From Muribaculaceae bacterium (GTDB taxonomy: Bacteria; Bacteroidota; Bacteroidia; Bacteroidales; Muribaculaceae): a DNA stretch of 64,000 bases. The stretch's first letter is position 1, and every line of letters starts with the position of its first letter. The notes below the pieces were generated by a model. The model did not search any database and was not told where the DNA came from. It was given only the letters and a program-made list of their open reading frames with translations. A program made the translations under genes and the position numbers. The stretch lies in NCBI GenBank assembly GCA_910573745.1, contig CAJSYI010000008.1:1-64000 (forward strand). Reading direction: 5' to 3'. Of this stretch, positions 33,832-42,723 are shown in pieces.

Positions 33832-35649
33832 ATGAAAAAGACCTCTGCCGTCGCCGCCCTCTCGGCGGCCTGCCTCTTCGTCAACGGCGCCGAAACCCCT
33901 CCCTGCACGCTGGACATCAAAAGCCAAGAAGTTTTCGACTCGCAATGGACATCGGTGGACGCCAACCGCGACGGAGGGGACTACCAGTTCTTCTATGGCG
34001 GGGAGTTCGCACTGTACGTGCAGAACAAGGGAAAGACAGCCGACGACTGGATAATAAGCCCTGCCGTGAGCCTAAAAGCGGGAAGGACTTACAGAGTCAC
34101 GGCATCGGTGAGGAACCTCTCACCGTCAACGTACGACAGGCAGTCGTTCACGGTAACGGCAGGAATGACTCCGGACGTGTCCGGAATGACACAGGCCGTC
34201 TTTTCGGAGACGGCTCTCGAGACGTCGAAAAAACCTGTTGAGCGCGACGGGGTCTTCACCCCGGCCTCCTCGGGGGACTACCACATCGCCCTCCACCTGA
34301 CCTCAAAGCCGGGCAGCGGCGACTTCGGGTTCTACAGCTTCACGATAACAGATGAGACCACTGCGCCGGAAGCCGTCAAGGACTTGGCCATCCACGCCGC
34401 CACGGACGGCAGCCTCAAGGCCACGCTCTCATGGACAAATCCCGGCCAGACATCAGACGGGAACGATGCGGATGCGGCAGACCGAATCGAAATCCTCCGT
34501 GACGGAACACCCGTGGAAACCCTGACAGGAATCAAGGGCGGCACGCAAGGCCTATTTGAAGACATCCTTCCCCGACCCGGCTCCTACACTTACTCAATAA
34601 CAGCCTTCAGAGGGGATATGGCATCCGAGACTACCATGGTGCAGTCGCCATGGATAGGACACGACACTCCGGAAGCACCGACCGGCGTGGCAGCAACAGT
34701 CGAGGACGGGACACGCACAGTTACGTTCGAACCCGTAACCCAAGGAGTACACGGAGGCTACATAGACGTTGACGGGATTAGCTACACGGTGAGCCGGAAC
34801 GGCGTAGTGCTCACTACCGGACTCAAAGGCGCGCCTTTCACCGACACCGAACCGGGCCTCCCGTTCGCCGTGTACAGATATTCGGTCTGGGCCGTCAACG
34901 GTGAATCCGCAGGCGATGCAGCCGAATCCGATGGAATCGCATTCGGAGATGCCCTCCCGCTGCCATTCTCCTCCGACTTCTCCTACGCCGATGGCTTCGC
35001 GCTCTGGACGTTCACCGACGCGGAAGGCAACGAGTCCGGAGCCTGGGAATGCAATGCCGCCGGCGGATGCATCAGCACAGGCCCCGCAGCCTCAGGTGCC
35101 TGGGCGTTCACCCCGCCGCTTATGATGCAGAGAGGAGAATGCGAACTGGACGTGCAGGCTTTGTGCCAGACTCACGGGAATCCCGGGAGCCTCGGCGTCT
35201 TCCTATGCCGCGACGCTCTGTCGCCGCTTTCCGAATCGGCTACAGAGATAACCACTATGCAGCCCGACGACGCGGACACGTCCACAACACGCAGCTTCAG
35301 CTTCACCGTACCAGAAACCGGAAAATACCACATAGGCTTCGGAGCCACCGGCGACATCCCGGGCTGGAGCCTGTTCCGTGCCGACGTCAAGCAGACGAGA
35401 GCCGGGGACGCCAACGTGGGCATCGACCCTATCCGCGAAGAGACCTCATTGCGCTATGTCCGAGAATCGGAGGCAATCGTCTCCGTAAGGCAGGGCACAA
35501 TTGAGGTACGTTCTGCCGACGGCCTCCTTAAGACGGTCAGCGTAACCGACGGGGCAGTCAGCGTTGCCGGCCTCCCGACCGGGATATACGTCGCCACGTT
35601 CACCGCAGACGACGGGACTTCGTCTACGCTCAAATTCCTGAAGCAGTGA
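33832..35649 (+). CDS. Secreted protein: choice-of-anchor J and fibronectin type III-like domains, T9SS-like tail
   Basis: The 605-residue product has a signal peptide (MKKTSAVAALSAACLFVNGAE) and a first jelly-roll domain of the choice-of-anchor J / cleaved-adhesin type (FFYGGEFALYVQNKGKTADDWIISPAVSL, about 25-165). Two fibronectin type III-like domains follow (about 170-375), then a second jelly-roll (FAYADGF-type start, SGAWAFTPPLMMQ, about 380-540), and a C-terminal tail ending GLPTGIYVATFTADDGTSSTLKFLK that resembles type A sorting domains of the type IX secretion system. It is probably exported and may bind a surface or glycan. The ATG at 33832 is chosen for the signal peptide; the longer frame to 33754 crosses the promoter. 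Confidence 0.75.
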   Translation: MKKTSAVAALSAACLFVNGAETPPCTLDIKSQEVFDSQWTSVDANRDGGDYQFFYGGEFALYVQNKGKTADDWIISPAVSLKAGRTYRVTASVRNLSPSTYDRQSFTVTAGMTPDVSGMTQAVFSETALETSKKPVERDGVFTPASSGDYHIALHLTSKPGSGDFGFYSFTITDETTAPEAVKDLAIHAATDGSLKATLSWTNPGQTSDGNDADAADRIEILRDGTPVETLTGIKGGTQGLFEDILPRPGSYTYSITAFRGDMASETTMVQSPWIGHDTPEAPTGVAATVEDGTRTVTFEPVTQGVHGGYIDVDGISYTVSRNGVVLTTGLKGAPFTDTEPGLPFAVYRYSVWAVNGESAGDAAESDGIAFGDALPLPFSSDFSYADGFALWTFTDAEGNESGAWECNAAGGCISTGPAASGAWAFTPPLMMQRGECELDVQALCQTHGNPGSLGVFLCRDALSPLSESATEITTMQPDDADTSTTRSFSFTVPETGKYHIGFGATGDIPGWSLFRADVKQTRAGDANVGIDPIREETSLRYVRESEAIVSVRQGTIEVRSADGLLKTVSVTDGAVSVAGLPTGIYVATFTADDGTSSTLKFLKQ

Positions 35650-35675
35650 GCCGCGCTCACGCACCGTGCAAAGGT

Positions 35676-36515
35676 ATGCAGATGCCATACACCCGTCCCG
35701 TTTGCGGATTGGATCGTTTTCCGCAGGCCGCAGACAACAATCCATTAACAAAGGACGAACTGAAAGCGCCAGACGATTTCTTCATACCCGACAACGAGAT
35801 CAGGTTTCCGGAAGAGCTTGATTACAGCCGCGTGGATGAATATATCCGCTCGGCTGAGGCGTTTTCGCGCTCGTCTTATCAGAGCGTCTATATCATCGAC
35901 TATTTCAGGCAGAACTTCCTTTATGTGTCGCCAAATCCGATGTTCTTGTGCGGTCTGTCGCCGGAGCGGGTGAAGGAATTGGGATACCGCTTCTATCTTG
36001 ACTTTGTTCCGGAAGATGAACAGCCAATGCTGCTGACGCTCAACAAAGCCGGATTCGCTTTCTACAACGACATACCAACCGATGAGCGTAAGGACTGGCA
36101 TATCTCCTACGACTTCCACATTCTCAACGAGGGAAAGAAAATCCTTGTCAACCACAAGCTGACGCCGCTTGCCCTCACCTCCGACGGCAGGATATGGCTT
36201 GCGCTGTGTGTCGTGTCGGCGGCCACACATACAGATGCCGGGCATATCGAGATGCACCGGACAGGCACATCGGAGTTCTTTGAATACAATATCACCTCCC
36301 GTCGCTGGAACAGACGGCAGATGCCAACGCTATCTGACGGAGAGAAGTCGGTGCTGGCCTTATCCATTCAGGGCTATACCATGTCGGAGATTGCCGACAA
36401 AATATGTCTATCGCCCGACACCATCAAGAAATACCGTAAGCGCATATTCGAGAAACTTGATGTGCGCAACATCTCGGAGGCGATAGTGGCTGCGACCAAC
36501 AACAAGCTACTCTAA
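35676..36515 (+). CDS. LuxR/NarL-type transcriptional regulator with PAS-like sensor region
   Basis: The C-terminal 60 residues are a LuxR/GerE helix-turn-helix: LSDGEKSVLALSIQGYTMSEIADKICLSPDTIKKYRKRIFEKL. The preceding 170 residues (RVDEYIRSAEAFSRSSYQSVYIIDYFRQNFLYVS onward) read like a PAS-type sensor, seen in many Bacteroidota regulators of this size. There is no receiver domain. The start is uncertain: ATG at 35676 (279 residues) or 35682 are possible, and a GTG at 35646 overlaps the preceding stop. It ends by overlapping the next, convergent gene by 9 bp. TACCC-N4-GGGTA dyads nearby suit a NarL-type regulator, making it the likely controller of both barrel genes (inference). Confidence 0.82.
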   Translation: MQMPYTRPVCGLDRFPQAADNNPLTKDELKAPDDFFIPDNEIRFPEELDYSRVDEYIRSAEAFSRSSYQSVYIIDYFRQNFLYVSPNPMFLCGLSPERVKELGYRFYLDFVPEDEQPMLLTLNKAGFAFYNDIPTDERKDWHISYDFHILNEGKKILVNHKLTPLALTSDGRIWLALCVVSAATHTDAGHIEMHRTGTSEFFEYNITSRRWNRRQMPTLSDGEKSVLALSIQGYTMSEIADKICLSPDTIKKYRKRIFEKLDVRNISEAIVAATNNKLL

Positions 36516-37040
36516 GTTCTTGCAGAGATAGAATCTCGGAAAATGCTTCACCTCGCGGCCGACGGCTATATTGGCGGCTATCCGTGCGCAGATATGCGCC
36601 GCTGTCCGTTGTGCCGCATCGCTCGTCTTGCCCTCCCTTATCTTAGGCAGAGCGGACTGTAACCAGTCGCAACCCTCCATATTCCAAAAGGCGCAGTACC
36701 CGGCCATATACTCGACAGCCCATAGACGCGCATTTGCCTTGCCGTGCAATTCGTTGTCATCTCCCGGCATCACTACTATTGCACTGCCTCCGTCAACAAA
36801 ATCAAAAGGATATATTATAGGTATGGCGGCATTATCTTTGACATGGGTACAGGCTTCGCCCGCATACTCGGCTACCATATCTACAGGCCCAATTTCCGTG
36901 TGGACATCGTTCCCCGGCACAATATTTATAGAGTTGAAACCGGATCTGTAAAGTTCGGCCTTTACATAGTCGATAAAATCCGATGCGCCGATAATCATAA
37001 CCCGGCAGTCTGCGATAAGGCGTTTTTCCTCGCTTGTCAT
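36507..37040 (-). CDS. Rossmann-fold protein, degenerate ThiF/MoeB-like (function unknown)
   Basis: A 177-residue soluble protein. Near the N-terminus, CRVMIIGASDFIDYVKAELYRSGFNSINIVP reads like the first beta-alpha-beta unit of ThiF/MoeB/E1-type Rossmann domains, but the glycine-rich loop is reduced to GASDF and no adenylation Arg or catalytic Cys can be placed. IPIIYPFDFVDGGSAIVVMPGDD may be the fourth strand region. The resemblance is weak; I do not assign a reaction. It is divergent from the first barrel gene and shares a symmetrical promoter with it. A copy of its 5' end recurs near 40.48 kb. Confidence 0.65.
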   Translation of the reverse strand: MTSEEKRLIADCRVMIIGASDFIDYVKAELYRSGFNSINIVPGNDVHTEIGPVDMVAEYAGEACTHVKDNAAIPIIYPFDFVDGGSAIVVMPGDDNELHGKANARLWAVEYMAGYCAFWNMEGCDWLQSALPKIREGKTSDAAQRTAAHICARIAANIAVGREVKHFPRFYLCKNLE

Positions 37041-37185
37041 ATTAGTTGGTTTTTACTCTGCAAAATTAAGGCTATCCCAATCGCTATGCCATATCCAAAA
37101 GGGTACGTTTTCACTCCGAGGTGCAATCTTACCCTTTTGGGTATGGCAAGGAATTTATAGTGACTGTAATTTTGCGTCAGAAATC
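36997..37185. repeat. Duplicated regulatory segment, copy 1
   Basis: This block and 40466-40628 share about 33 of the first 35 bases (the start of the degenerate Rossmann gene), then, after a 27-28-base stretch present only here (37032 to about 37058), the two -7 boxes, both TACCC-N4-GGGTA dyads and the sequence up to TCAGAAATCA. The duplication therefore carried the 5' end of the divergent gene together with the promoter. Confidence 0.8.
37061..37174. promoter_or_regulatory. Symmetric bidirectional promoter with paired TACCC-N4-GGGTA dyads, copy 1
   Basis: A minus-strand -7 box TAATTTTG (37061-37068) is followed by 20 nt, a dyad TATCC-AAAA-GGGTA (37092-37105, inside a 17-nt arm at 37089-37105), a 24-nt gap, a dyad TACCC-TTTT-GGGTA (37130-37143, arm 37130-37146), 20 nt and a plus-strand -7 box TAATTTTG (37167-37174). 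The 17-nt arms are inverted repeats of each other (16/17). No TTTG -33 element stands at the right distance on the plus side; the dyads occupy that place, as expected for activator-dependent start sites. The plus transcript leads into the barrel gene at 37200. Confidence 0.75.
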
Positions 37186-37199
37186 AAAATCATTCACAG

Positions 37200-39263
37200 A
37201 TGAGAACAATACTTATAATTTTCTGCGCTTTACTGCCAATGGCGGTACTCGCACAAAAAGAGCGTCAGCTTCAGGAAGTTACAGTTATTGCTTCCCGAAC
37301 CACAAATAACGCCGAAGGTTACACTACCAACCTCCGAGGCTCTGATATAGCCAAAGGTAAACCCGCTATCGATGTACTGGGATTCCTTCCAAACATCTCC
37401 CGAGAAAACGGCAACTTCAAAATCAACGGCCTCGCCGCAAGCGAGATTTACGTTGATGGCGTGAAGCTCTCCGACCTCTCGGAGTTGAACAACATCCCGG
37501 GAGAGATGATAGACAAGGTTCAGGTCAAATATCTGGCAGGATCCGACCAGAACGCCTCGCTCAGCGGAGGTACAATAATGATTACGCTCCGACGTCCTCC
37601 GGAGGGTGGTTATTATGGCAGCATCTCGGCAAATGCCGACTGGTACAGAAGCTGTGGCTTCGGCAACGAAGGTGTCGGGGGCATGATAAACTACCGATAT
37701 AAGGGGTTAAGCGTGTATGACAACCTTTATGCCGGGGCAACCAGGGTTGAGGATAATTCAGAACAGACAATGACGGGTGACAACCTTCATACATTTCTCA
37801 AAGAGTCATCCAAATCTCACGGCTTCGATTTCAGAAATCGTCTTAGCCTAACGCAGCAGTTCAACTCAGGTGCTCAACTCGGAGGCAGCTATTTGGTATC
37901 TTTGTATCGTCCCCGTCCGTCATCTGTATCAGACAATGAGAGTCTGACTTCATCAGTCAGCAGTCGCAAAAATATTGTACTACAGGAAGGGACTCTTCGG
38001 TTCTTGCAACCGCTTTCCTCTCGCGGCTCTCAGATGGAACTTACTGCCGACTACCTGAACCGTCATAGCCGTAACAGCAGCAGCTATTTCCTTAATTCGG
38101 AAAAGACTGCCGCCATAGAAGAAACCGACAATCTCAATCTTTGGAAATTCAAAGCTGATTTCATCTATCCCCACAGCCGTACGCTCGTATGGAAATTCGG
38201 AGCTTCAGCGCAATTAATATCCTCAAAATACACTCCGACCGACATCGTTGAAAGTGACCGCTTTGAGACAAGCGACATTCCAACCAAAACATCCGGATTC
38301 ACTCCCATAGTCTATGCCTCGGCACAAGGAAGGGTTTGGAAACTCAAATATAGCGCCGGTGTCAATTGGCAGCTTAATCGCATTTCCTACGAAGACCTAT
38401 CCATCAACAAAAAAAGCACAAATACCCAATGGTCGATAAATCCGACAGTACAGGTCATGATGCCTTTCGGCTCGAAAATGAACCATGCCCTCATGCTCAG
38501 TTATAAGCGGACTCTCAGTGATATACCATACACAGCCATATCATCGGTTATCAATTGGAGCGACACTTACAATTATACCGTGGGCAATCCTGATTTGAAA
38601 GCACAATCAGCCGACATAGTAATGGCCGGATTATCTCTGCTCCGAAACAAGATTAATCTGACTGCCCTTTACGCCCATTCTCACGACCGAATCTATTGGC
38701 AAACATTCCAGAGCAAGGAGACTCCCGATGTATTTTATACCAAGCCGGTGAATATAAACGGTCAAGGTGTCTGGGGCTTCGGTGCGGAATGGATGGAAGC
38801 ACCAACTAAATGGTGGCGTTTCAAACTTTCAGGACGAATTGAGATCACACCAGAGAATACAAAGCTTGACGGAATACATTATAACAAGACACGCTTCAAG
38901 GAATATTTCTATTTCAACAACAATTTCCGATTCGGTCACGGCTGGGGCGGCATGCTAAACGCAAACTTCGAGCCAACCTATCGCACTCTCGACCGCACAT
39001 ACCATGCTGTTTACACTGTGAACGGGCAGATTTACAAGACATTTCTTGGCGATAATCTTCAAGTCGCATTGGACTTTACCCCATTAGGCAACCGTCGCAA
39101 GCTCGACCGACAAGCCGGAGCGAACAAGGTGTCATATAAGTACACCACCCCCGTACAGTATGTCGGATTCTCGCTTACATGGAACTTCTCCGGAGGTAAG
39201 AAGGTGGATGTAAACGTCGTGGACGGTATTCAAGATTATCACGAAACCAAAGACAATAGATAA
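37200..39263 (+). CDS. TonB-dependent-receptor-like outer-membrane barrel, copy 1
   Basis: A 687-residue outer-membrane protein: signal peptide (MRTILIIFCALLPMAVLAQ), a short EVTVIASRT segment leading into a plug domain (GKPAIDVLGFLPNISRENGNFKINGLAASEIYVDGVKL, to about 115), then a long 'OMP_b-brl_3'-like beta-barrel rich in aromatic strands, ending in RKLDRQAGANKVSYKYTTPVQYVGFSLTWNFSGG. There is no N-terminal carboxypeptidase-like domain and no SusD partner, so it is not a classic Sus pair. The lipoprotein gene follows by one base. Transcription probably depends on the dyad promoter upstream. Ligand unknown. Confidence 0.85.
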   Translation: MRTILIIFCALLPMAVLAQKERQLQEVTVIASRTTNNAEGYTTNLRGSDIAKGKPAIDVLGFLPNISRENGNFKINGLAASEIYVDGVKLSDLSELNNIPGEMIDKVQVKYLAGSDQNASLSGGTIMITLRRPPEGGYYGSISANADWYRSCGFGNEGVGGMINYRYKGLSVYDNLYAGATRVEDNSEQTMTGDNLHTFLKESSKSHGFDFRNRLSLTQQFNSGAQLGGSYLVSLYRPRPSSVSDNESLTSSVSSRKNIVLQEGTLRFLQPLSSRGSQMELTADYLNRHSRNSSSYFLNSEKTAAIEETDNLNLWKFKADFIYPHSRTLVWKFGASAQLISSKYTPTDIVESDRFETSDIPTKTSGFTPIVYASAQGRVWKLKYSAGVNWQLNRISYEDLSINKKSTNTQWSINPTVQVMMPFGSKMNHALMLSYKRTLSDIPYTAISSVINWSDTYNYTVGNPDLKAQSADIVMAGLSLLRNKINLTALYAHSHDRIYWQTFQSKETPDVFYTKPVNINGQGVWGFGAEWMEAPTKWWRFKLSGRIEITPENTKLDGIHYNKTRFKEYFYFNNNFRFGHGWGGMLNANFEPTYRTLDRTYHAVYTVNGQIYKTFLGDNLQVALDFTPLGNRRKLDRQAGANKVSYKYTTPVQYVGFSLTWNFSGGKKVDVNVVDGIQDYHETKDNR

Positions 39264-39264
39264 T

Positions 39265-39636
39265 ATGAAAGCAATACTTATAACAATATTCGCAATGATG
39301 GTGGTATGCTTCATCTCTTGCAATAACACGGGTTCGGATTACGAAACAGAACAAGCTGAATTTGAGCGCGAACAGGTAGAATTAGCCGAAGAACAGTCCG
39401 AACTGGAAGCTGAACAGGAAGAACTGCGCCGAGAGTATTCCGAAATGAAAAAAGAATATCTCCGCGAAAAGGCAGAATTTCAGAAAGAACAAAAGGCTCT
39501 TCGCAAAAGTGTAAGGAAAGAGCACAATACAAATTCAGTAAAGTGTGATACAACCATGCGACAACTGACAGATACCGAAATGACAGAACTTACTAATAGG
39601 GTCAAATCGGCTGGTTTGTGGCCATCCAGTAAGTAA
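39265..39636 (+). CDS. Small coiled-coil lipoprotein
   Basis: A 123-residue lipoprotein: signal peptide with Cys19 (VVCFISC), then about 60 residues of Glu/Gln-rich helix with a regular E-x-E-Q-x-E-L-x-x-E-Q spacing (EQAEFEREQVELAEEQSELE, and more), ending in a soluble TMRQLTDTEMTELTNRVKSAGLW stretch. The pattern is that of a long charged helix. Its start lies one base after the stop of the barrel gene, so it is translationally coupled. It may reach from the membrane toward the cell wall or the barrel. I do not recognise a family. Confidence 0.75.
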   Translation: MKAILITIFAMMVVCFISCNNTGSDYETEQAEFEREQVELAEEQSELEAEQEELRREYSEMKKEYLREKAEFQKEQKALRKSVRKEHNTNSVKCDTTMRQLTDTEMTELTNRVKSAGLWPSSK

Positions 39637-39639
39637 GAA

Positions 39640-39699
39640 ACAGCTTAATCATACCAACAACCGCCCTCGGTTATGAGCGCCGAGGACGATAAGTAAAAT
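39640..39699 (+). repeat. Intergenic module A, copy 1
   Basis: Begins ACAGCTTAATCAT and holds a CCCTCGG...CCGAGG stem followed by GATAAGTAAAATA. A close copy follows the second barrel gene (42729-42789). The stem may be a terminator. Confidence 0.65.
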
Positions 39700-39705
39700 A
39701 AAAAA

Positions 39706-40353
39706 ATGAAACATAATTTTAGGATATTATTGGCAACTATTCTAATCATTCCATTATGCATTAATGCTCAAACATGGAACTTTGGAATTGAGGCAGGATA
39801 TGTCAATAGCGCCCTATCGGTTTGCGACAATTCGGCAACATCAAAAGGTGGATTCAAGTTTGGGGCTAACGCTGAATTCATGCTACGTAATAACATTAGT
39901 TTTGAATCCGGATTGTCATACATCCGAAAAGGAGCTACTGTAACAGGGCATAATATGATGAATACAGTGATAAGTTCCATTAGATTTGCAGAAATGGACT
40001 ATTTACAGGTTCCTGTGATGGCAGGATATAGATTCACCTTTAGCAATGACTTTTCTTTGAAACCAGAACTTGGCGTTTATTTCGCAGTTGGAATCAATGG
40101 AGATTCGTTTGTTACCGGAGTCGATCCATTTAACCAGCCATACGAAAAGAGAGTACGCACTTTTAGTGGCGCAAACGGTGTCTCATATCGTCCGTGTAAC
40201 AGAGTTGACGGAGGTTTCTCATTTGCAATTAGTGCAAAATGGTATCATATAGGTATGAAAGTGGAATATGATTTTGGTCTGGTCACTGCATCTTATTATG
40301 GCAATGGTAAACAAAGATGTCTATCTGCTTCAATTATTTACTGGCTACATTGA
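39706..40353 (+). CDS. Small outer-membrane beta-barrel (PorT/porin-like)
   Basis: A 215-residue protein with a signal peptide (ending CINAQ) and an eight-strand-like barrel: WNFGIEAGYVNS, FKFGANAEFMLRNNISFESGLSYIRKG, LQVPVMAGYRFTF, LKPELGVYFAVGIN, ISAKWYHIGMKVEYDFGL and the final SASIIYWL strand. It resembles the PorT/OmpA-like barrel families common in Bacteroidota. It is conspicuously A+T-rich compared with genes outside the cassette. It sits between module A and module B of the flanking repeats, as if inserted there. No partner is evident. Confidence 0.75.
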   Translation: MKHNFRILLATILIIPLCINAQTWNFGIEAGYVNSALSVCDNSATSKGGFKFGANAEFMLRNNISFESGLSYIRKGATVTGHNMMNTVISSIRFAEMDYLQVPVMAGYRFTFSNDFSLKPELGVYFAVGINGDSFVTGVDPFNQPYEKRVRTFSGANGVSYRPCNRVDGGFSFAISAKWYHIGMKVEYDFGLVTASYYGNGKQRCLSASIIYWLH

Positions 40354-40361
40354 TTCGATAG

Positions 40362-40435
40362 ACAGCTTAATCATACATAGACAAAGACAGACAACCTCGG
40401 CTGAGATGTCGGGGTCGACTATATTTCGGTGTCAT
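40362..40435 (+). repeat. Intergenic module B, copy 1 (with ACAGCTTAATCAT)
   Basis: ACAGCTTAATCAT (40362-40374) is followed directly by ACATAGACAAAGACAGACAA, then CCTCGGC...GTCGGGG. In copy 2 (42798-42848) the same sequence follows module A without a gene in between. Confidence 0.65.
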
Positions 40436-40465
40436 AGTCCGGGAGGACGATAAACCGAAACTTGT

Positions 40466-40628
40466 ATAACCCGGTAATCTGCGATAAGGCGTTTTTCCTC
40501 TGCAAAAGTAAGGCTATCCCAATCGCTATACCATACCCAAAAGGGTACGTTTTCACTCCGAAGCGCAATCATACCCATTTGGGTATGGCAAGGCTTTTAT
40601 AGTGGATGTAACTTTGCATCAGAAATCA
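40466..40628. repeat. Duplicated regulatory segment, copy 2, with vestige of the divergent gene
   Basis: The first 35 bases (40466-40500) match the beginning of the degenerate Rossmann gene (33/35) but its start codon and about 27 bases before the promoter are deleted and no remaining gene follows on the minus side. The rest repeats the promoter region of the first barrel gene. Confidence 0.8.
40503..40616. promoter_or_regulatory. Symmetric promoter with paired TACCC-N4-GGGTA dyads, copy 2
   Basis: Minus-strand -7 TACTTTTG (40503-40510), 20 nt, dyad TACCC-AAAA-GGGTA (40534-40547), 24-nt gap, dyad TACCC-ATTT-GGGTA (40572-40585), then the plus-strand -7 TAACTTTG (40609-40616), beginning 20 nt after the 17-nt arm that ends at 40588. 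The dyad centres are 38 bp apart, as in copy 1. All spacings equal those of copy 1. It drives the second barrel gene; the minus direction now has no gene. Confidence 0.75.
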
Positions 40629-40644
40629 TAAAACCGACATAAAT

Positions 40645-42723
40645 ATGAAACAAGTAATCACATTCATCATCGTGTTGTTCTGCGCTTTATGTGCTTTGGC
40701 GCAGACAGAAGCTCCCGATTCAATATCGACACATGAGCTTCAAGAGATAGTAATCCAAGCTCCTAAAGTAATCCGTAAAGCCGATATGGATGTCTATCAT
40801 CCTTCCAAAAGCGCGGTCGAAAACTCAAAGAACGGTATGCAGTTGCTCCGCAACATAATGATTCCGACATTAACCGTAAATGACGCACTCGGTTCGATAA
40901 GCGCGGCAGGACAATCTGTGCAGATACGAATCAACGGCAGGGTTGCGACCATTGAACAGGTCAAGGCCCTTCTACCGGAAACGATCAAGCGTGTTGAATG
41001 GATTGACAATCCCGGACTGCGCTATAATGGGGCAAATTATGTGCTTAATGTCATAGTGGCTAACCCCACTCTCGGTGGTTCCCTAATGTTGCAGGCAAAG
41101 CCTGCATTGAATCAGAAATGGGGATATTATCAAGGAGATGCCAAGTTAAATATAGGTCGTGCACAATGGAGTGTTGGCGGTTATTTCAAACTCACGGATG
41201 AGATAAAAGCCCATCGAGAGTATGAGGAAACTTTCACTTACCCCAACGGAACCTCACTGACAAGAAAAGAGACGCCGCTTGGAGGAGAGCTTGATAATTC
41301 ACAGGGAGCGGCATGGATTACATATAACTATATAAAACCCGATACGACCATTTTCTATGTGTCGTTGCAGGCAAATCGCAATTTTTCGGATAAATGGCAA
41401 TTCAACGGTTTGTTAAACTTAAGCAACGGAGATGATGACATAGACCTTATGGATTCCAGCGGAAGAATATGCACCACTCCATCATTCTCAGCATATCTTG
41501 AACAGCATTTTGCCCATAAACAGACACTGGTCGTGGATTTCAGCACATCTATGTATGCCGGACATTCTTACTCCGATTATGTAGAGAAATATCCCGGTTC
41601 GACACATCTCATAAACGATATTCACACTTATATCAAGGACCGCAATCAAGCTTACGGATTAGAAGCAAACTATATTAAGCAATGGAGAGCCTCAAGATTT
41701 ACCGCCGGAGCATCGTATACAGCCAATCGGAACCGCTCTACCTACGAGAATCTTGACGGGGCGGTGTTCCATCAGCGTCAGGACAAGGCATATTTCTTTG
41801 CCGAATACTTTCACCGCATTAACAAGGTAACCTTGACCGGAGGCATAGGGGCGCAATATACGTCATTCCTATTCAAAGAGACAAATCAGGGTAGCCACTC
41901 ATGGAATCTTCGTCCGCAGGCCACAGCGACATATTCGCCCAACCAGAATCATCAGTTACGTCTGAGTTTCACATCATGGCAGTCTGCCCCATCGCTCGCC
42001 GAAACCAATATAGCTCCACAGCAATTGGATGGATTCCAGTGGCGCATAGGTAATCCGAATTTAAAAACCTCATCATCATACATGCTCTCGCTGCGTTACA
42101 GTTATAATTTGCCACGCATCTCCGGCTCATTCGGAGTAAGAGGATTTACAAGTCCCAATGCCATAACTCCTTATCTTTATTGGGATAAAGATCGACTGAT
42201 AACCTCATATGAGAACAGCAAAGGCCTGCAAAACATAAGTTTTTGGTTTGCGCCGCAGATTGAAGCTATTCCCTCATGGCTTGTAATATCAGGGACAATA
42301 CAATACATGGCAGAGCGTATGAAAGGCAATACATATAAACTATATAACCATTGCTGGAGTGGTGATGTAAGTGCGATGGTGACACATTGGGGTTTTACGC
42401 TTGGATTCCAATATGTCAGAGCGCAGCGTAATCTTTGGGGTGAAAAGATTTCATGGGGAGAAGACATCTCTGTAATCGACCTTTCATATAATTGGAAAAA
42501 CTGGGAGTTTAGTGGCGGTATGATTCTACCGTTTGGGAAGTATGATCAGGGTTCACGTTCATTGAGCAAATGGAACACCAATGAGATGCACACGCGTCTT
42601 GACATGCGTATGCCGTATATCTCTATAAGCTACAATCTGCAATGGGGCAGACAAAAACGCGGAGCTCAGAAGCTCGTTGAAGTTGATGCCAACGCCGACC
42701 GCTCAAGTACAGGCGGAAGATAA
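40645..42723 (+). CDS. TonB-dependent-receptor-like outer-membrane barrel, copy 2
   Basis: A 692-residue protein built like the barrel at 37.2 kb: signal peptide (MKQVITFIIVLFCALCALAQ), ELQEIVIQAPKVIRKADMDVYHPS leading into a plug (about 30-130, with GSISAAGQSVQIRINGRVATIEQVK), and a beta-barrel of about 550 residues ending SISYNLQWGRQ-type strands. The two copies share architecture and promoter, but their sequences differ strongly, so they are distant paralogues with possibly different ligands. No coiled-coil lipoprotein gene follows this one. Confidence 0.85.
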   Translation: MKQVITFIIVLFCALCALAQTEAPDSISTHELQEIVIQAPKVIRKADMDVYHPSKSAVENSKNGMQLLRNIMIPTLTVNDALGSISAAGQSVQIRINGRVATIEQVKALLPETIKRVEWIDNPGLRYNGANYVLNVIVANPTLGGSLMLQAKPALNQKWGYYQGDAKLNIGRAQWSVGGYFKLTDEIKAHREYEETFTYPNGTSLTRKETPLGGELDNSQGAAWITYNYIKPDTTIFYVSLQANRNFSDKWQFNGLLNLSNGDDDIDLMDSSGRICTTPSFSAYLEQHFAHKQTLVVDFSTSMYAGHSYSDYVEKYPGSTHLINDIHTYIKDRNQAYGLEANYIKQWRASRFTAGASYTANRNRSTYENLDGAVFHQRQDKAYFFAEYFHRINKVTLTGGIGAQYTSFLFKETNQGSHSWNLRPQATATYSPNQNHQLRLSFTSWQSAPSLAETNIAPQQLDGFQWRIGNPNLKTSSSYMLSLRYSYNLPRISGSFGVRGFTSPNAITPYLYWDKDRLITSYENSKGLQNISFWFAPQIEAIPSWLVISGTIQYMAERMKGNTYKLYNHCWSGDVSAMVTHWGFTLGFQYVRAQRNLWGEKISWGEDISVIDLSYNWKNWEFSGGMILPFGKYDQGSRSLSKWNTNEMHTRLDMRMPYISISYNLQWGRQKRGAQKLVEVDANADRSSTGGR

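Follow-up and report, generated by a model that had tools for sequence, protein, structure and literature searches.

We analyzed a 64,000-nucleotide (nt) stretch of DNA from a Muribaculaceae bacterium of the order Bacteroidales, phylum Bacteroidota (assembly GCA_910573745.1, contig CAJSYI010000008.1, positions 1 to 64,000), here called the window. It encodes a LuxR-type regulator with a PAS sensor domain, next to a short gene related to the cyclase AclA and a promoter region carrying two dyad-symmetric sequences. This promoter region recurs as a direct repeat, and its dyads are candidate operator sites for the regulator. The features concerned are as follows.

35646-36515, plus strand: PAS-LuxR regulator with a GerE helix-turn-helix (HTH) domain, AclR-like (Pfam GerE)
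36507-37040, minus strand: 177-aa degenerate AclA/ThiF-like protein (hhalign, fold match, phmmer)
37049-37189, plus strand: operator/promoter region, copy 1 of a 141-nt direct repeat (self-comparison)
37061-37068, minus strand: -7-type box TAATTTTG of copy 1, leftward promoter of the AclA-like gene
37092-37105: dyad 1 of copy 1, TATCCAAAAGGGTA, one mismatch (pattern scan)
37130-37143: dyad 2 of copy 1, TACCCTTTTGGGTA (pattern scan)
37167-37174, plus strand: -7-type box TAATTTTG of copy 1, rightward promoter
40491-40631, plus strand: operator/promoter region, copy 2 of the direct repeat, 89% identical to copy 1 over 141 nt
40503-40510, minus strand: -7-type box TACTTTTG of copy 2, leftward, facing only a gene remnant
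40534-40547: dyad 1 of copy 2 (pattern scan)
40572-40585: dyad 2 of copy 2 (pattern scan)
40609-40616, plus strand: -7-type box TAACTTTG of copy 2, rightward promoter

The dyads share the consensus TACMCWWWWGKGTA. Their centres are 38 bp apart in copy 1 and in copy 2, and a pattern scan of the window sequence found the pairing described in an earlier note on this DNA to be exact to the base. In all four units an outward-pointing box of the -7 type (TAnnTTTG; Bacteroidetes promoter elements are by convention named -33 and -7) starts exactly 37 nt from the dyad start. The same note had placed the boxes 20 nt from the 17-nt outer arms, one in each direction, which holds for all four. No TTTG was found at the normal -33 spacing in either copy, in agreement with the claim that the dyads stand where TTTG -33 elements are expected. 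Allowing one mismatch, the window contains four dyads against an expectation of 0.61, and a count of four was not reached in any of 100 shuffles. Of the proposed likeness to NarL/LuxR half-sites, a loose resemblance stands; the two 7-mers abut here (7-0-7), whereas NarL sites are laid out as 7-2-7. A 7-0-7 dyad fits a GerE-type dimer.

To determine how widely this arrangement is kept, we compared 53 loci, namely the window and 52 regions fetched around the better regulator matches in genomes of the family. A unit was defined as a dyad that departs from TAYMCWWWWGKRTA at one position at most, followed by a box at 37 nt; near means at most 1.5 kb from the regulator and far more than 4 kb, and the dyad read backward was the control pattern. 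The earlier note had named absence of the dyads from homologous loci as the finding that would count against an operator. Such absence was not what the comparison showed: a full unit lies within 1.5 kb of a regulator homologue in 31 of the 53 loci, although 22 have none that close. There are 49 units in 189 kb of near sequence versus four in 515 kb of far sequence, two of the four being copy 2 of the window, and the control gave no unit in any of the loci. Across 198 genomes of the family, 64 have a regulator match with an E-value of 1e-10 or better and 15 have the pair pattern, the control being found in 0 of 198. Fourteen of the 15 are among the 64 (Fisher p 5e-7); the sole pair-bearing genome without a regulator match, G082, has its dyads 41 bp apart. 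Single-dyad counts were rejected as evidence: 81 of the 198 genomes have one, and since such counts resemble those of the control in many genomes, only pairs and dyad-box units were used. This within-family comparison strongly supports the dyads as the putative operator of the adjacent regulator. That role, proposed in the earlier note, accords with dyads kept beside many homologues and with a rigid, activator-like distance to the -7-type box.

We also scanned 84,980 species genomes for the dyad followed by T, 22 nt and TANNTTTGC. The pattern was found in 108 stretches of up to 8 kb, versus about two expected by chance (an estimate that assumes uniform composition), and 76 of the 80 listed carry Bacteroidota titles. 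The stretches hold 133 distinct sites. A second dyad with at most two mismatches lies 20-79 bp upstream of 70 of them, versus two in a downstream control of equal width. The first gene after the site encodes an OMP_b-brl_3 protein in 35 cases, a short AclA-like protein in 23, DUF6624 in 12, an esterase in seven, a leucine-rich repeat (LRR) protein in five, a FeeM-like acyltransferase in three and other families in eight; 40 are unassigned. In four Prevotellaceae contigs (L113, L155, L165, L173) the promoter unit precedes a similar 172-aa protein and the regulator is not in the stretch. No Pfam match was found for the 172-aa protein of L113, and these units are possibly mobile.

The spacing between dyad and box is nearly invariant. 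Among 131 oriented exact dyads, a count that enters each dyad in both orientations and so has a ceiling of about half, the box is offset by 37 nt in 46, by 36 nt in one and by 38 nt in none. Dyad-box units number 172, of which 136 are non-redundant; in these a short A-rich stretch precedes the dyad and a TGGC-like stretch follows it. Opposite-facing units that both have boxes are separated, counted per unit, by 37 (4), 38 (26), 49 (2), 59 (8) or 69 bp (2), and by no other distance. Because the steps between these classes are about 10.5 bp, roughly one helical turn, the distances suggest that two bound dimers, or two polymerases, would keep one helical relation.

The earlier note had tied the dyad pair to a divergent gene pair. 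Among loci that extend 1.5 kb or more in each direction, some of which entered the set through the operator pattern itself, the pair is present in 18 of the 22 whose only partner is the short AclA-like gene versus three of the 26 without any partner in view, so that it goes with the AclA-like partner; 13 of the 26 partner-less loci have a single unit or more. Single dyads occur ahead of a single outward gene (for example L072, L074, L076, L077 and L080-L083), and this supports one dyad per promoter, not a four-part complex at one promoter. With the box centred at -7, as is conventional, the geometry relative to the -7-type box predicts a dyad centre near -41. This would be the position of a class II activator, with the dyad replacing the missing -33 element; lux boxes are palindromic sites near -42. 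It is improbable that the regulator is instead a repressor or dual regulator that blocks polymerase from -41 until a signal frees it. Half-site symmetry alone does not set the sign of regulation, but a dyad at the missing -33 element with one rigid box distance is typical of class II activators and a repressor site needs no such spacing. In L039, L040, L041, L220 and L224 the dyad facing the regulator's own gene is 44-45 nt from the TAnnTTTG box, not 37, which suggests a different mode of autoregulation.

The regulator was modelled with AlphaFold2 at a mean predicted local distance difference test (pLDDT) score of 89.7. Pfam and the predicted fold show a GerE HTH and a PAS sensor domain. Its best Foldseek matches are 3clo, a LuxR-domain regulator from B. 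thetaiotaomicron, and then the quorum receptor VqmA, at 12-22% identity. Both have the same PAS and GerE HTH architecture; VqmA, at this low identity, differs in binding 3,5-dimethylpyrazin-2-ol (DPO), according to structure titles. LuxR/LuxI N-acyl-homoserine lactone (AHL) systems and NarL-type regulators share the GerE DNA-binding domain, whereas in the window regulator neither an autoinducer-binding domain (Pfam gives only GerE, and the N-terminus folds as PAS) nor a phosphoacceptor receiver domain (Pfam and fold search) was found. Membership in the NarL/FixJ response regulators was rejected for lack of the receiver domain, and P. gingivalis CdhR/PG1237 was considered as a model regulator and dropped. 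The conserved part begins at about residue 37 of the longest open reading frame (ORF). Homologues align from about residue 37-43, often with an ATG there. In the window (35646-35760) no ATG stands at the corresponding place, so its ORF must start further upstream, for example at ATG 35676 or 35682, close to where the preceding gene ends. L105, a contig of an 'Oscillospiraceae' metagenome-assembled genome (MAG), carries a regulator that shares 85% identity with that of the window. The window's own genome (G000) encodes a paralogue, 88% identical, on contig C3 with its own short AclA-like gene. The operator dyads of the paralogue (L037, G000:C3, 7740-7864) are TATCCAAAAGTATA and TATACTTTTGGATA, 49 bp apart, both with a box at 37. 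Their half-sites have diverged to TATCC/GTATA, perhaps reflecting a separate specificity.

The 177-aa AclA-like gene overlaps the 3' end of the regulator gene on the opposite strand. No Pfam match was found for its product. The protein aligns with the ThiF/AclA family in hhalign (probability 99.3, E 3e-20), matches PDB entry 9egc in phmmer (1e-10) and, in a model of moderate confidence (pLDDT 73), matches the fold of 9egb (AclA) with a TMq of 0.71. The 'Rossmann' protein of the earlier note is thus a decayed AclA relative. In the hhalign alignment to the family it lacks the ELSNLNRQ...DIGK.K block, and because this block is absent catalysis by the protein is unlikely. A ThiF profile search found no intact AclA in G000 at E 1e-40.

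Intact relatives of these parts occur together in other genomes. The regulator is about 45-51% identical to regulators beside acyltransferase and AclA-type genes. The acyltransferase in the relatives' loci is an N-acyl amino acid synthase of the FeeM-like type, matched by PF21926 in the case of L118. The acyltransferase, the regulator and an intact ThiF-type gene occur with dyads in or beside the locus in L039, L050, L156, L215, L217 and L218, and in another order in L220-L224. Some of these dyads carry one or two mismatches. Such three-gene loci with dyads span the window's family, other families of its order and another order; L085 has all three genes and no dyad within 1.5 kb. In 395 genomes of the phylum the ThiF profile had matches in 11 at 1e-40 (13 loci), and six of the 13 hold acyltransferase, regulator and cyclase within 1.5 kb. 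The ThiF protein of L156 matches PDB 9egc at 2.9e-95, and 9egb, a near-identical sibling, is titled 'AclA from Tenacibaculum discolor in complex with substrate'. These matches place the ThiF-type cyclase in the AclA family of N-acyl-cyclolysine (ACL) signalling. Linares-Otoya et al., in Nature in 2025, reportedly described this pathway as lysine acylation and cyclization by AclA, with AclR as the sensor and control of co-localized operons. A 2026 review (PMC13419125) treats ACL signalling in Bacteroidota with reference to Linares-Otoya et al. The chemistry of an N-acyltransferase and a ThiF-type cyclase acting on N-acyl amino acids is established for the OxzAB, TyzACB and TrzAS oxazolone pathways, in which a flavin oxidase takes part, and the excerpted descriptions mention no such regulator or operator (PMC10404671, PMC12856293). 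An acyl-oxazolone signal, considered from the same excerpts, was set behind ACL after the fold match to AclA. Among the matches listed, no paper covers the operator, or such a regulator with FeeM/ThiF genes, in Bacteroidales; the primary ACL paper lay outside the literature searched.

The window resembles the ACL circuit in its regulator, homologous to the LuxR-type regulators found between acyltransferase and AclA-type cyclase, and in its operator dyads, AclA-like partner gene and outer-membrane or secreted-type genes behind the operators. It differs in that the AclA-like protein has only 177 aa and lacks the conserved block, in that the operator copies flank a barrel cassette, and in that no acyltransferase was detected in its genome with PF21926 (E 1e-3) or profile A3 (E 1e-8). 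In a tree of 82 regulators the window belongs to a clade of 44 (support 100/99), of which 29 have the short AclA-like gene and 15 have neither partner in view; no acyltransferase lies in the flanking sequence covered for any of the 44, this sequence being short in some cases. Outside the family, an acyltransferase match at 1e-8 was found in three of 14 genomes of the order with the regulator. Because no acyltransferase and no intact AclA were found, and no acyltransferase was seen in the flanks of the clade's regulators either, a receiver-only derivative is the best reading. The strain could instead make its own signal through a complete but split circuit, with the acyltransferase and a working cyclase diverged or elsewhere in the genome. 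We regard this as unlikely. The second regulator on C3 with its AclA-like gene would suit such a circuit, and PF21926 is insensitive, matching three of 198 genomes and missing acyltransferases found by queries made for this analysis. Profile A3, however, finds no acyltransferase in G000 at 1e-8, and the C3 copy is again a regulator with a short AclA-like gene and no acyltransferase match in the sequence around it.

The best reading is a real operator-regulator pair belonging to a receiver-only derivative of a known signalling family. The earlier note had proposed an undescribed, self-contained uptake or sensing module; that description was not supported, the parts being related to the ACL family described in 2025, the acyltransferase not being found and the cyclase relative being degenerate. 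The module is a variant of this family in which signal synthesis has apparently been lost. We think it probable that the dyads are sites of the adjacent PAS-LuxR regulator, acting by class II activation within such a derivative. The sequence data show the geometry of the operator, its conservation with the regulator, the homology of the parts and the lack of a detected synthase; regulator binding, activation, the ligand and eavesdropping are inferred. One dimer of the regulator (gene 35646-36515) would occupy each dyad near -41, stand in for the missing -33 element and bring RNA polymerase to the TAnnTTTG box at a distance of 37 nt. A head-to-head dyad pair would then serve two divergent promoters. 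In copy 1 these would drive the AclA-like gene leftward and beta-barrel gene 1 rightward; in copy 2 the rightward promoter would drive beta-barrel gene 2 and the leftward one would be vestigial. The regulator would represent the AclR side of the ACL family, with the acyltransferase apparently lost and AclA reduced in this lineage. The circuit would most likely serve as a receiver for an acylated signal that neighbours produce, or for a different PAS-pocket ligand.

Several observations weigh against this account or limit what supports it. Exact TACCCN4GGGTA occurs three times in the 3.08-Mb genome, every time at this locus, and the backward-read control likewise has three matches; because these counts are equal, the dyad count alone is uninformative, and clustering and geometry matter. 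In 22 of the 53 loci no unit lies within 1.5 kb of the regulator. Nine of the 22 are one regulator clade (L042-L047, L049, L052, L055), which may have a differing operator; some others end at contig ends or have a dyad 1.8 kb away. Order-wide, the regulator profile has matches in 14 of 393 genomes at 1e-50 (18 matches), and a dyad is present in the 1.5-kb flanks of seven of the 18, two of them in the window's genome, and missing from 11. The 49- and 69-bp distance classes each come from a single pair (L037, L143) counted from its two sides, and when the phase test took in all 12 distinct distances between dyads, with the noise among them, P was only 0.027. Four of the 80 listed stretches have non-Bacteroidota titles (L105, L111, L116, L163): L105 and L163, the latter a 'Staphylococcus' MAG, are likely mis-binned or mislabelled, and L116 may be a chance match. 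The gene class behind 40 of the 133 sites is unassigned. The regulator was not found within 1.5 kb in seven of the 13 AclA-type loci. Absence of the acyltransferase is read from a 122-contig assembly with profiles built from few sequences, and the class of signal is assigned by homology. Finally, the regulator lies within only 55 of the 108 pattern-found stretches, each of up to 8 kb. The 53 without it in view, together with the many distant regulator homologues that lack a nearby dyad, are what would be expected if the dyads bound another factor, or were RNA hairpins or terminators, and the regulator gene were a bystander. That is very unlikely, as the dyads are associated physically and genomically with the regulator across genera and their 7-0-7 form suits GerE-type dimers. 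A terminator or hairpin role was rejected, the dyads being upstream of -7-type boxes.

An operator of the PAS-LuxR regulator in this form would provide a signalling family from a dominant phylum of the gut with an exact, searchable candidate site, and its regulons could be read from genomes alone. It also opens two questions to testing: whether Muribaculaceae of the gut listen in on acyl signals that others produce and they themselves do not, and what role the decayed cyclase has. Speculatively, and with somewhat less than even confidence, Muribaculaceae would have converted a Bacteroidota quorum circuit into a listen-only regulon in which the synthase is lost, the shrunken, non-catalytic cyclase is kept under the operator, perhaps to carry the ligand or to restrain the regulator, and the helically phased operator pair is a joint for swapping outer-membrane cassettes.

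The genes between and behind the two operator copies are as follows.

37200-39263, plus strand: outer-membrane beta-barrel (OMP_b-brl_3) gene 1 (Pfam PF14905, 2.6e-55)
39265-39636, plus strand: 123-aa coiled-coil-like protein with a lipoprotein-like N-terminus (matches below curated cut-offs only)
39706-40353, plus strand: small beta-barrel (OMP_b-brl_2; Pfam)
40466-40500, minus strand: remnant of the 5' end of an AclA-like gene, 35 nt, 94% identical to 36997-37031
40645-42723, plus strand: outer-membrane beta-barrel (OMP_b-brl_3) gene 2 (Pfam PF14905, 4.4e-20)

Copy 2 lacks the start-codon stretch of the left-hand gene, so an intact left-hand gene is found at copy 1 only. In L057, from G043, barrel 2 follows directly on the regulator, AclA-like gene and operator (93% and 96% DNA identity, overlapping at the operator), and the protein directly behind the operator there is 98% identical to barrel 2 of the window. 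At this junction the window carries three further genes between two operator copies: those for barrel 1, the coiled-coil-like protein and the OMP_b-brl_2 barrel. Such a cassette, with an operator at either end, suggests a way in which outer-membrane genes come under this kind of control; one of these genes is related to a neighbour of a peptide-maturation operon. Barrel 1 has 91.6% DNA identity over 1992 nt to a gene of G175. That gene adjoins a radical SAM protein close to maturases of ribosomally synthesized and post-translationally modified peptides (RiPPs) and a C39-peptidase ATP-binding cassette (ABC) exporter, and its operon neighbours an acyltransferase-regulator-cyclase locus. Since the relative sits among RiPP-type genes by an ACL-type locus, barrel 1 probably originated in an operon of the secreted-peptide type that a related circuit controlled. 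In L039 (205-6021) a barrel 1 homologue is on the same strand as a RiPP-maturase-like radical SAM protein and a C39 ABC exporter near an ACL-type locus, likely a secreted-peptide operon.

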